Assembly: GCF_030052995.1 (NCBI RefSeq)
Contig: NZ_JASJPW010000011.1
Location: 1-39,581, forward strand
Reading direction: 5' to 3'
Origin: Gemmobacter sp. 24YEA27
GTDB lineage: Bacteria > Pseudomonadota > Alphaproteobacteria > Rhodobacterales > Rhodobacteraceae
DNA length: 39,581 bases
The translations under genes were made by a program, and so were the position numbers. The notes below the pieces were generated by a model. It searched no databases. It worked only from the letters and a program-made list of their open reading frames with translations, and had not been told where the DNA came from. Positions 17,419-32,903 of this stretch are shown here, piece by piece (position 1 is the stretch's first letter; every line of letters begins with the position of its first letter).

Positions 17419-18585
17419 ATGAAAATCGCCGTTGCCGGGCTTGGCTATGTCGGCCTCTCCAATGCGGTGCTGCTGGCCCAGCATCACGAGGTTGTCGCGG
17501 TCGATATTTCGCCCGAACGTGTGGCGCTGGTGAATGCCGGCCGTTCGCCCATCGTCGATGCCGATATTGAAGAGTTCCTCGCCAATCGCGCGCTGACACT
17601 GACGGCCACGCTGGAGGCGGCGGAGGCCTACCAGGGGGCCGATTATGTCGTGGTGGCCACGCCCACCAATTACGATACCCAAACCGACCGTTTCGACACC
17701 AGCAGCATCGAGGCGGTGATCCGCGCGGTCATGGCGGTGAACAGCACAGCCACCATCGTCGTCAAATCGACAATCCCGGTGGGCTATATCCGCCGCATCC
17801 GCGAAGAGCTGGAGACGAAGCAGGTGATCTTCAGCCCCGAATTCCTGCGCGAGGGCCGGGCGCTTTATGACAACCTGCATCCCTCGCGTATCATTGTGGG
17901 CGAGCGGTCGCCCCGGGCCGAGGGCTTTGCCGCGCTGCTGGTCGAGGGGGCGATTGAGAAAGATGCGCCCGTCCTTTTCACGGACCCCGATGAGGCTGAG
18001 GCGATCAAGCTTTTCGCCAATACCTACCTCGCCCTGCGGGTGGCTTTCTTCAACGAACTCGACAGCTATGCCATGCTGCGCGGGATGGACAGCCGCCAGG
18101 TGATAGAGGGGATCGGTCTCGATCCGCGGATCGGAAGCCATTACAACAACCCCTCTTTCGGCTATGGCGGCTATTGCCTGCCGAAAGACACCAAACAGCT
18201 GCTGGCGAATTACGCGAATGTGCCGCAGAACCTGATCGCCGCGGTAGTTGATGCCAATCGCACGCGCAAGGATTTCCTGGCCGATCAGATCATTGCGAAA
18301 CGGCCCGGAGTGGTGGGCATCTACCGGCTGGTGATGAAGGCGGGGTCAGACAATTTCCGCCAAAGCTCGATCCAGGGCATCATGAAGCGGATCAAGGCCA
18401 AGGGGATCGAGGTCGTGGTCTATGAGCCCGCCCTGGCCGATGAACAGTTCTTCGGCAGTCAGGTGATCCGCGATCTGGAGGCGTTCAAAGCGGCCTCCGA
18501 TATGATCGTCACCAACCGCCAGACCCCGGATCTGGAAGATGTGGCAGAAAAGGTCTTTACCCGCGATCTTTTTGGCGCCGACTGA
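17419..18585 (+). CDS. ugd: UDP-glucose 6-dehydrogenase
   Basis: A 388-residue enzyme, the same length as the E. coli Ugd, that oxidises UDP-glucose to UDP-glucuronate with two NAD. The N-terminal Rossmann motif is AGLGYVGLS (residues 5-13). [10 protein letters not shown] and STIPVGY follow, then [21 protein letters not shown] in the middle. The catalytic Cys is in [14 protein letters not shown] near residue 256. It implies that the polymer contains glucuronic acid or a sugar made from it. The ATG at 17419 follows an AAAGGA ribosome site. Confidence 0.95.
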
Positions 18586-18866
18586 GCGCAGTCCTCTCTC
18601 TGCCTGAGGCATCGCCCGGGCAAAGAGACGCCTTGTGGGGAATGGTTCTGGGGCGTGCGACACATCCCATTCCGGCTTCCCCCCTCGCCGCGGGCGGGTT
18701 TTCGTGCCGCGGGGGGGCTGATGAAACTGCGTTCCGGGATTTGGCCGCCCGCCGGATTTTCCGGCCTTAATGCAGTCGCGCCCTGGCTTTGCCCCGCCCA
18801 TGCCTTCGCTTTGCCCGGTGGATATGGCATCAGGGGAAAAATTTTCCTGAGCGCTATGGCAGGGCA
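18586..18866. other. Intergenic leader before cysD
   Basis: A 281-bp gap without a credible gene. It is GC-rich and contains a GGAAAA-A-TTTTCC dyad shortly before the cysD ribosome site (near 18835-18850). A separate promoter for cysDNC is possible but not resolved. Confidence 0.4.
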
Positions 18867-19775
18867 ATGACCGCAAAAACCACGCTGACCCATCTTCAGC
18901 GGCTTGAGGCCGAAAGCATCCATATCATGCGCGAGGTGGTCGCGAATGCCGACCGCCCGGTTATGCTGTATTCGGTGGGGAAAGATTCCGCCGTGATGCT
19001 GCATCTGGCGAAAAAAGCCTTTTACCCGGCCCCGCCGCCTTTTCCGCTGCTGCATGTCGATACGACCTGGAAATTCCGCGCCATGTATGAGCTGCGCGAC
19101 CGCGCGGCCAAAGCGGCGGGCATGGATCTGATCGTCTATCAAAATCCCGAGGCCCTGGAGAAAGGCATTAATCCTTTCGACCACGGCGGCCTGCATACCG
19201 ATATGTGGAAGACCGATGGTCTGAAACAGGCGCTGACCAAATTCGGCTTTGATGTGGCCTTTGGCGGCGCGCGGCGCGATGAGGAAAAATCGCGTGCGAA
19301 AGAGCGGGTCTTTTCCTTCCGCTCGGCCAGCCATCGCTGGGATCCGAAGAACCAGCGCCCTGAGCTGTGGAAGCTTTACAACACCAGGAAAGCCCCGGGC
19401 GAAAGCATCCGCGCCTTCCCGATCTCGAACTGGACCGAGCTCGACATCTGGCAATATATCCATCTTGAAGGCATTGAAATCGTGCCGCTCTACTTTTCAG
19501 AGCCGCGCCCGGTGGTGGAACGGAACGGCCTTCTGATCATGGTTGATGATGACCGTTTCCGGTTGAACCCCGGCGAAGTGCCTGAACTGAAATCCGTGCG
19601 CTTCCGCACCCTTGGCTGCTACCCGCTGACCGGCGCGGTGGAATCCGAGGCCAGAACCCTGCCGCAGGTGATCCAGGAAATGCTGCTGACCACCACATCG
19701 GAACGCCAGGGCCGCGCCATTGATCATGACCAGGCCGCCTCGATGGAGAAGAAAAAGCAGGAGGGCTATTTCTGA
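18867..19775 (+). CDS. cysD: Sulfate adenylyltransferase small subunit
   Basis: A 302-residue ATP sulfurylase subunit that, with CysN, makes adenosine 5'-phosphosulfate from sulfate and ATP. The N-terminal [19 protein letters not shown] and the PP-loop [17 protein letters not shown] are diagnostic, as are [20 protein letters not shown] and [15 protein letters not shown]. The start is taken at 18867, which has an AGGG ribosome site and the expected N-terminus; an upstream in-frame ATG would add 26 unrelated residues. Its stop overlaps the cysNC start (TGATG). No sulfate-reduction genes accompany it, so sulfation of the polysaccharide is a plausible purpose. Confidence 0.95.
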
Positions 19776-31499: not shown

Positions 31500-31544
31500 T
31501 CCAGCCCGTTATCCCTTCTGTGATCCCCTTCTGTGAGGCCTCCG

Positions 31545-32903
31545 ATGCGTAACCCTCCTTTGCTTGCCACGCTCCTGGCCGGGCTTGCGCTGTCGCTGGC
31601 AGGCTGCGGCATTGCCTATCAAAGCACCAGTATCCGCGAAGGTGTGGCGGACGGCACCAAGGTCAGGGTGATCGGCCTGACGCCCGAAACCACACTGGCC
31701 GCCAATCAGCAGGCCTATAGCCCGCGGGCGCTGCCTGCGGCCTTCAGCGCGACGGCCGGCACCCATGGCACAATGGCGCGCGGCCTGCCCGCGCCCGCCA
31801 ACCTGCCCGAACAACGCCAGGGCGTGCCCGCGACCAGATTGCCGCCTGCCGTCGCGGCGACCCCCTATCAGGTGGGTGTCGGGGATGTGGTTTTGCTCGC
31901 GACCAAGGCGCCCGCCAATTCGGTGGCCGAGTTGTCGGGCCTCCTGGCTGCGCAAAACAATCGCCAAGGCTATACCGTCCAGGATGACGGCGCGATCGCC
32001 ATTCCCGATGTCGGCCGGGTCCGCATCGCGGGTATGACGCTGGAGGATGCCGAAGCGGCCGTGTTCCAGCGTCTCGTTGAGCGCCAGATGGATCCGAGCT
32101 TCAGCCTCGAAGTGGCCGAATTCAACGCCCGCAAAGTGCCGATCGGCGGCGCTGTGGCAAATCCCGGTGTGGCGCCGGTCACGCTGACACCGCTGACGCT
32201 GGACACGGCGCTGGCAGCGGTGGGCGGCATCGCCGCGCCTGACCGCTCCTCCGCAGTGATCCGCATCTATCGGGCGGGGTCGCTTTATGAGATCCCCGTC
32301 ACCGAATTCCTGCGCAACCAGAGCTACCAGAAAACCCGTCTCCTTGACGGCGATACGGTCTTTGTCGACAGCGATTATGATCTGACCCGTGCCGAGGCCT
32401 ATTTCTCCGAACAGCTCGCGCTGCAGGGCGCGCGCTCTTCGGCCATCACCGCACTCAGCCAGGAAGTGGGCATCCGCCGCTCTGAGCTGGAAGAGCAGCG
32501 CGCGAATTTCAACACGAGGCTCGAGCTTGGGGCCGAGAAGCGGGACTATGTCTATCTGACCGGTGAGGTCGGCAAACAGGGTCGCTGGGCTCTGCCCTAT
32601 GACCAGAGCGCAAGCCTTGCCGATGCCCTGTTCGATCAGGGCGGCATCGCGGCCAAGACCGGCAATCCAAGACAGATCTACGTGCTGCGCGGCTCGGCGG
32701 ATCCGCGTGAATTCGGCGCCCTGACCGCCTGGCATCTTGATGCCGGTGCCGCAGCCGGCCTGATGCTGGCGACACGTTTCGAGATGCGCCCGAATGACGT
32801 GGTTTATATCGCGCAGCAGCCGGTCACCAAATGGGACAGGGTCGTCTCGCAGATCACACCCAGCCTGATCACGGTTCCGCTGAACAATCTGACCGAAAAC
32901 TGA
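31545..32903 (+). CDS. wza: Wza-type polysaccharide export outer-membrane lipoprotein (intact copy)
   Basis: About 452 residues from ATG 31545, which has GTGAGG six bases upstream; GTG 31533 is less likely. The lipoprotein signal ends at SLAGC. The poly-export domain (PF02563) spans about residues 103-190 (YQVGVGDVVLLATKAP, then GYTVQDDGAIAIPDVGRVRIAGMTLEDAE). It is followed by SLBB-like repeats (KVPIGGAVANPGVAPVTLTP, and again RDYVYLTGEVGKQGRWALP). The C-terminal part (PNDVVYIAQQPVTKWDRVVSQITP) is the family's usual end. It should form the outer-membrane exit and contact the Wzc-like kinase. A helical stretch at about 285-320 separates the SLBB repeats. Last gene of its operon. Confidence 0.93.
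   Translation: MRNPPLLATLLAGLALSLAGCGIAYQSTSIREGVADGTKVRVIGLTPETTLAANQQAYSPRALPAAFSATAGTHGTMARGLPAPANLPEQRQGVPATRLPPAVAATPYQVGVGDVVLLATKAPANSVAELSGLLAAQNNRQGYTVQDDGAIAIPDVGRVRIAGMTLEDAEAAVFQRLVERQMDPSFSLEVAEFNARKVPIGGAVANPGVAPVTLTPLTLDTALAAVGGIAAPDRSSAVIRIYRAGSLYEIPVTEFLRNQSYQKTRLLDGDTVFVDSDYDLTRAEAYFSEQLALQGARSSAITALSQEVGIRRSELEEQRANFNTRLELGAEKRDYVYLTGEVGKQGRWALPYDQSASLADALFDQGGIAAKTGNPRQIYVLRGSADPREFGALTAWHLDAGAAAGLMLATRFEMRPNDVVYIAQQPVTKWDRVVSQITPSLITVPLNNLTEN

Follow-up and report, generated by a model that had tools for sequence, protein, structure and literature searches.

The 39,581-nucleotide contig NZ_JASJPW010000011.1 of Gemmobacter sp. 24YEA27, analysed here over its whole length (the window), is contig C11 of the host's 5.08-Mb, 12-contig genome. 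It very probably represents a circular plasmid of ~32.35 kb with a RepA/ParA/ParB backbone, which encodes a Wzx/Wzy-dependent exopolysaccharide or capsule, and on which the cysDNC genes act as the cell's ATP sulfurylase rather than as a sign that the polymer is sulfated. Judged by its genome, the host appears to be a Pseudogemmobacter-like Paracoccaceae bacterium, sharing a genus grouping with Pseudogemmobacter humi; its status as a roseobacter is not shown. The gene families (called by Pfam and NCBIfam profile scans, with NCBIfam curated cut-offs), the circle and the relatives lend good support to the core of an earlier note on this DNA, namely a plasmid-borne fucose/glucuronate Wzx/Wzy pathway on a RepA-type backbone.

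The contig as a circular plasmid

Comparison of the contig with itself revealed that positions 1-7234 and 32347-39581 are the same stretch, read twice. The two 7.2-kb copies differ by three single-base insertions or deletions (indels), each in a run of C or G; since the ends are duplicated and differ only by such indels, the contig most likely represents a circle of ~32,346 bp, with the assembler having continued beyond one full turn. The indels between the contig's own copies also provide a measurable error rate for the assembly. The replication and partition genes are:

12940..13974, -, RepA-type replication initiator (PF10134, 327 bits)
14478..15929, +, ParA partition ATPase (AAA_31/CbiA; TIGR03453, 188 bits, under the cut-off of 348)
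15974..16996, +, ParB (ParB_N)

An RPA-family RepA divergent from ParA/ParB, together with a polysaccharide cargo, is thus present, as in Rhodobacterales RepA surface-sugar plasmids. By summed open reading frame (ORF) lengths, the exopolysaccharide genes occupy ~20.7 kb of the 32.35 kb, or 64%, and do not fill almost the whole plasmid as had been claimed; the remaining circle is shared by rep/par (4.1 kb), cysDNC (2.9 kb) and one insertion sequence (IS). The stretch 17419-32903, to which the pathway had been assigned, does hold the genes from ugd to wza, but about half of the parts list lies outside it: the genes for the initiator and the WcaI-like enzyme, gmd, fcl, wzx and wzy occupy the last part of the contig, from 33203 onwards, a repeat of 856-7867 in which an indel at 39483 shortens the second wzy copy, while the genes for the two glycosyltransferases of families GT4 and GT2, the pyruvyltransferase, the acetyltransferase and a nitroreductase-like protein lie at 7953-12920.

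Genes for precursor synthesis, assembly and export

The genes of the pathway are listed below with their family matches (guanosine and uridine diphosphate are abbreviated GDP and UDP; scores are given against cut-offs).

17419..18585, +, Ugd, UDP-glucose 6-dehydrogenase, 388 amino acids (PF03721/00984/03720)
23860..25326, +, ManC, bifunctional mannose-1-phosphate guanylyltransferase / mannose-6-phosphate isomerase (TIGR01479, 561 over 373)
3147..4265, repeated at 35495-36613, +, Gmd, GDP-mannose 4,6-dehydratase (TIGR01472, 577 over 415)
4362..5300, repeated at 36710-37648, +, Fcl, GDP-L-fucose synthase (NF047922, 522 over 500)
33203..33880, repeated at 856-1533, +, initiating sugar-phosphate transferase, short form (PF02397, 191 bits)
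34200..35498, repeated at 1891-3150 with the start altered by an indel, +, WcaI-family glycosyltransferase (NF007640, 445 over 276)
7953..9116, +, GT4 glycosyltransferase (Glycos_transf_1)
11976..12920, +, GT2 glycosyltransferase (PF00535)
9287..10474, +, polysaccharide pyruvyltransferase (PF04230, 105 bits)
10471..11025, +, WcaF-like hexapeptide acetyltransferase (NF007797 subfamily, 187.6, just under the cut-off of 192)
5300..6594, repeated at 37648-38942, +, Wzx flippase, broken at a G7 run into two ORFs in each copy (weak WZX_like and MurJ matches, under cut-off)
6659..7867, +, Wzy polymerase candidate, of low GC content (0.40; precomputed PF04932; nine relatives besides itself)
26358..28538, +, Wzc-like polysaccharide co-polymerase with kinase domain (Wzz, GNVR, AAA_31) and, read from the sequence, a Tyr-rich tail
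28648..30861, +, YjbH (PF06082, 644 bits)
30858..31499, +, YjbF lipoprotein of the GfcB family (PF11102, 73 bits)
31533..32903, +, Wza-type outer-membrane exporter (Poly_export, SLBB_2)
23381..23710, +, secreted-looking protein of 109 amino acids with a Thr-rich tail, YjbE/GfcA-like by appearance only

All five components of a Wzx/Wzy pathway were found: the initiating transferase, Wzx (frameshifted), Wzy (a candidate), a Wzc-type co-polymerase and a Wza-type exporter. The GDP-fucose set proposed earlier is confirmed, with ManC, Gmd and Fcl all above their NCBIfam cut-offs. UDP-glucuronate synthesis also held up: Ugd passes the nucleotide-sugar-dehydrogenase subfamily (TIGR03026, 339 over 190), though it misses the Ugd equivalog (NF011631, 625, under 757). 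Family matches were likewise found for the initiating transferase, the WcaI-like and two other glycosyltransferases, pyruvylation, the Wzc-like kinase and the Wza-type exporter.

For other parts the outcome was mixed. Wzx and Wzy are both assigned by homology, but wzx is frameshifted and Wzy has no match in the Pfam scans run here, nor any among 72,556 plasmid records. The Wzx assignment was made because of its homologues: it shares 26-31% identity with an intact 432-amino-acid P. humi protein, most of whose own named homologues are annotated for O-antigen export or lipopolysaccharide biosynthesis. YjbF and YjbH were identified by Pfam and adjoin each other, forming a Yjb/Gfc (group 4 capsule-like) export pair, but the YjbE-like protein has no Pfam match, and YjbG/GfcC has none among the ORFs in Pfam scans of the window. 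Of the 72,556 plasmid records, 194 encode a match to YjbH, always below 60% identity; against solved structures, YjbH gave no match.

We suggest that ManC, Gmd and Fcl would supply GDP-L-fucose and Ugd UDP-glucuronate, and that the short initiating transferase would put a sugar phosphate onto undecaprenyl phosphate. The WcaI-family, GT4 and GT2 enzymes would then extend the chain to about a tetrasaccharide, with pyruvate and acetate decorating the repeat unit; Wzx would flip the unit, Wzy polymerise it and Wzc set the length, and export would proceed through Wza with YjbH/YjbF. The order of the sugars, their linkages and actual production of the polymer we infer from this gene set.

A nitroreductase-family gene (11048..12034, +, PF00881) lies near the pyruvyltransferase gene. 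Its product has matches in 37 plasmid records, 24 of them from Rhizobium, and two of these matches are annotated as pyruvyltransferase-family.

Plasmid-borne sulfate activation

Between ugd and manC lie two genes for sulfate activation, of which the second includes a kinase for adenosine 5'-phosphosulfate (APS):

18789..19775, +, CysD, ATP sulfurylase small subunit (NF009214, 529 over 413)
19775..21687, +, CysNC, ATP sulfurylase large subunit and APS kinase (NF004035, 963 over 715)

CysD has a single match in the 5.08-Mb assembly, on the plasmid, and a Sat-type ATP sulfurylase (PF01747) has no match in the genome. On the chromosome, sat-cysC persists as a remnant (C1:1248583-1249359) that still encodes the N-terminal part and the beginning of the APS kinase, contains stops, and lacks the ~0.7 kb in between, with the ATP-sulfurylase core. 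Its flanks are collinear, at 92-95% identity, with those of two relatives (G008 and G015), which carry an unbroken sat-cysC at this position, with open frames of 593 and 580 codons. Full-length Sat-type matches occur in 8 of 12 same-genus relatives (one has a fragment, three have none) and in 19 of 23 other same-family genomes. P. humi is one of the three without a Sat-type match; it has CysD, encoded on a different contig of 56 kb that lacks a RepA match, where the gene order is ugd-cysD-cysNC. When CysD-type and CysH-type matches were separated by score and length, four of the eight genomes searched had a CysD-type match, two a CysH-type match only and two neither. Because there is one CysD and no Sat match, and the chromosomal sat-cysC has decayed, the plasmid is probably the cell's sole source of ATP sulfurylase. 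The genes for synthesis of 3'-phosphoadenosine 5'-phosphosulfate (PAPS) named in the earlier note are present as CysD and CysNC, but CysNC is frameshifted, and we read the pair as the cell's ATP sulfurylase.

The open frame of CysNC ends at 21490 after a G6 run, and the remainder of the APS kinase continues in the next frame to 21687, so that the APS_kinase domain is matched in two in-line pieces (positions 2-97 and 100-152). The break thus lies within the APS kinase and leaves CysN unaffected.

We consider it an even chance that the exopolysaccharide plasmid has become indispensable by taking over sulfate activation: with sat-cysC decayed and cysDNC the sole ATP sulfurylase, growth on sulfate would force the cell to keep the surface-sugar genes as well. 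A search of the open-licence literature for plasmid-borne sulfate assimilation (cysD/cysDN) in Rhodobacter/Paracoccaceae gave nothing on point. In another same-genus genome (G013), the ATP-sulfurylase family is represented by a fragment only (C14:26218-26328), in a region partly collinear with the host, which suggests repeated loss of sat.

Alternative readings

Several points weigh against the reading of the plasmid as an exopolysaccharide replicon that carries the cell's ATP sulfurylase. The Wzy gene is a candidate, assigned from distant relatives and a precomputed domain. With wzx and cysNC (the latter in its APS kinase part) frameshifted in the assembly, the strain itself may have a broken pathway. 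The genome assembly is 98.56% complete, so a second ATP sulfurylase may have been missed. The chromosome also has a YjbH match, in two pieces (C1:1446809-1451632), beside a Polysacc_synt_2 dehydratase and a sugar transferase; from its gene content this region appears to be a second exopolysaccharide locus, and the plasmid therefore need not be the sole source of such a polymer. Finally, part of CysNC is an APS kinase domain, and chromosome C1 encodes a single PF03567 sulfotransferase (123 bits).

These last two features favour a sulfated polymer, for which the plasmid CysDNC would make PAPS for a sulfotransferase encoded elsewhere. PF13469 matches are also found on C1, with a below-cut-off pair on C7, and the chromosomal CysH has cysteine pairs of the APS-reductase type, a motif that we take as the sign of an APS reductase; cysteine would then need no PAPS, and the APS kinase would otherwise be idle. 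In other genomes, the similar block of Tritonibacter A3R06 includes a sulfotransferase, and a sulfotransferase accompanies cysDNC on Alloyangia plas4, which also has YjbH/YjbF, and on a plasmid of Sulfitobacter dubius. However, neither PF03567 nor PF13469 matches the plasmid in six frames (the search did not extend to PF00685 or other sulfotransferase families), the frameshift in cysNC affects its APS kinase part, and CysDNC, as the only ATP sulfurylase found, already has a job, simpler than polymer sulfation. On this evidence a sulfated polymer, raised earlier as a possibility, is not supported, and we regard it as unlikely.

We similarly doubt that the cluster is in decay and unable to produce polymer, in which case the wzx and cysNC frameshifts would be real and IS elements would be invading. 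The breaks lie at a run of seven G in wzx (near 5852) and a run of six G in cysNC (near 21465). In favour of decay, wzx is broken identically in both copies, and the plasmid carries a transposase-like fragment near 25763 and the following element:

21920..22968, -, IS5-family element with 19-nucleotide inverted arms, 89% complementary (NF033579, 217 over 140)

Given the indel rate of the assembly and the location of the breaks in G runs, however, neither is taken at face value, and both may be assembly errors; with three homopolymer indels between the contig's own 7.2-kb copies, sequencing error suffices for breaks in G6/G7 runs, and we rejected the frameshifts as proof of decay. The rest of the APS kinase is also still conserved.

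As to the mobile elements themselves, only the N-terminal ORF of the IS5 element (22365-22901) matches a family, and ORF 21798-22352 matches none. An interruption of cysNC by this element was rejected, as it lies past the cysNC end at 21687. The transposase-like fragment (25739-26035, its translation judged by eye) lies between manC and wzc.

The E. coli colanic-acid locus has five elongating transferases, and the repeat unit of colanic acid is a hexasaccharide. That the plasmid carries a true colanic-acid locus is highly improbable: the two have in common GDP-fucose and UDP-glucuronate synthesis, a WcaI-family and a WcaF-like enzyme, a pyruvyltransferase and Wza/Wzc, but only three elongating transferases are present here, YjbH/YjbF belong to the cluster, the wcaI (TIGR04007, 238 bits against 800) and WcaF (TIGR04008, 146 bits against 326) equivalog cut-offs are missed, and the initiator scores higher as WbaP (244 of 403 bits) than as WcaJ (TIGR03023, 154 of 411), cut-offs that are hard to reach for a protein of 225 amino acids against models of ~455. 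Compared with E. coli cps/wca, the plasmid thus overlaps in precursor and tailoring functions, and differs in an initiator closer to WbaP, fewer transferases and the attached Yjb genes. The acetylation proposed earlier stands as a hexapeptide acetyltransferase, though one that just misses the WcaF subfamily. The label 'colanic-acid-like' would therefore be valid only loosely, for the shared parts, and a better one, going by the genes, would be a fucose- and glucuronate-containing Wzx/Wzy exopolysaccharide of the Yjb/Gfc type. Passages of one study describe the polymer of the E. coli yjbEFGH operon as distinct from colanic acid, and report that mutations in the operon influence colanic-acid anchoring (PMC8117528).

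Related plasmids and a possible change of glycotype

Sequence comparison shows that a fucose/glucuronate exopolysaccharide plasmid is a known kind, and that the present plasmid extends the series: RepA, ManC, Ugd, Gmd, Fcl and Yjb/Wza also occur together on one plasmid in p49, A3R06 p4 and pDY25-D. The closest plasmid is P. humi NZ_UXAW01000138.1 (40,260 bp, of which bases 1-40,000 were compared). Identities to it are 90% for RepA, 91% for ParA, 69% for ParB, 93% for Gmd, 87% for Fcl and Wza, 83% for the WcaI-like enzyme, 80% for YjbH, 78% for Wzc and YjbF, 76% for GT4, 68% for GT2, 66% for the initiator and 48% for the WcaF-like enzyme. The compared stretch has no match to Wzy, the pyruvyltransferase, the nitroreductase-like protein, ManC, Ugd or CysDNC, and carries its own flippase (the 26-31% homologue of Wzx), an extra GT4 and an acyltransferase. 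Shared rep/par, export and early assembly genes, together with a distant wzx and an unmatched wzy, are expected if cassettes are exchanged on a common backbone to change the type of coat, and this comparison is the strongest support for a changed glycotype.

Pseudooceanicola algae p49 (NZ_CP060439.1), from the brown alga Fucus, already holds the fucose/glucuronate set, with RepA and Ugd at 73%, ManC 69%, Gmd 85%, Fcl 80%, Wza 57%, Wzc 48%, YjbH 40% and YjbF 33%; a pyruvyltransferase and a flippase-type lipopolysaccharide biosynthesis protein are annotated. It differs in having cysQ and an SLC13 permease annotated, and in lacking matches to cysDNC and to the WcaI-like, GT4 and GT2 enzymes. Tritonibacter mobilis A3R06 p4 (NZ_CP110387.1; RepA 69%, Ugd, as a nucleotide-sugar dehydrogenase, 76%) has in a single block the WcaI family, Ugd, Gmd, Fcl, a lipopolysaccharide biosynthesis protein, the WcaF family, GT4, Wza, YjbF, YjbH, Wzc and a sugar transferase. 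It differs in carrying a rhamnose operon besides its sulfotransferase, and has no cysDNC match in the stretch 28,000-77,662, which stops short of ParA/ParB. Pacificitalea pDY25-D combines RepA, ParA, ParB, YjbH, YjbF, Wza, Ugd, ManC, Gmd and Fcl with rfbA/rfbD.

The earlier note had expected a glycotype different from that of the rhamnose-type biofilm plasmids of roseobacters. Phaeobacter pP13_f, which we take as an example of the latter (its RepA, like that of p49, is 73% identical), carries on its RepA backbone rhamnose genes together with gmd, fcl, manC, YjbH and YjbF, and in Tritonibacter F1926 rhamnose genes occur alongside fcl, manC, a nucleotide-sugar dehydrogenase and a gmd matched over 73% of its length. 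The present plasmid shares with these the RepA backbone and a surface-sugar cargo, and no rhamnose genes were found on it; the RmlC family (PF00908) has no match on the plasmid, and matches in the genome only on C1, at two places. A strict division into rhamnose plasmids and fucose plasmids was rejected, as pP13_f, A3R06 p4, F1926 and pDY25-D carry both gene sets. The claim of a different glycotype thus fits the changed cargo on the backbone shared with P. humi, but is weak against rhamnose plasmids that also have fucose genes, and p49 had the fucose/glucuronate set already.

Gmd matches at 50% identity or more were found in 8 of 10 comparison stretches (host chromosome apart), that of F1926 covering just 73% of the query, and Fcl matches at about 50% or more in 7 of 10, with Pacificitalea reaching 50% after rounding; as the Alloyangia stretch ends inside its gmd, a blank there means little. 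A survey of RepA loci covered 80 of the 268 found, with flanks of up to 10 kb, often shorter, and identity floors for Ugd, Gmd, Fcl and ManC, so that its counts are lower bounds: RfbC in at least 26 loci, RfbA in at least 23, ManC in at least 11, Ugd and YjbH in at least 3 each, and Gmd and Fcl in at least 2 each. CysD with CysNC flanked at least 2 of the 80, in Szabonella alba and Falsigemmobacter intermedius. A distant search with the rep/par region matched 757 plasmid records, none over more than 80% of the query. According to passages of a 2023 paper, plasmids of 10 Leisingera strains carry colanic-acid genes, no rhamnose operon occurs in the set studied in that paper, and biofilm plasmids are more diverse than expected (PMC10090131). 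By search of the open-licence literature, nothing on point was found for fucose or sulfated exopolysaccharide plasmids in Rhodobacteraceae, or for RepA plasmids with GDP-fucose genes.

Within the backbone, a palindrome, ATGTTTCGCGCGCGAAACAT, lies directly 3' of parA (15935-15957) and again within parB (16855-16890), where it lengthens to a perfect 36-bp inverted repeat. Pieces of 14 bases also occur in p49 (three places), P. humi and Neotabrizicola, with none in the pP13_f stretch; the palindrome is a candidate parS-like site. The same genome holds a second RPA-family RepA replicon (C6:164670-165359).

Implications

Together, the P. humi and host plasmids offer a comparison of coat type within one genus. 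If the plasmid does supply the only ATP sulfurylase of the cell, this would explain, in a simple and testable way, why the cell keeps a surface-sugar plasmid that looks accessory: it would be hard to lose, and plasmid-curing tests may fail or may require cysteine in the medium.

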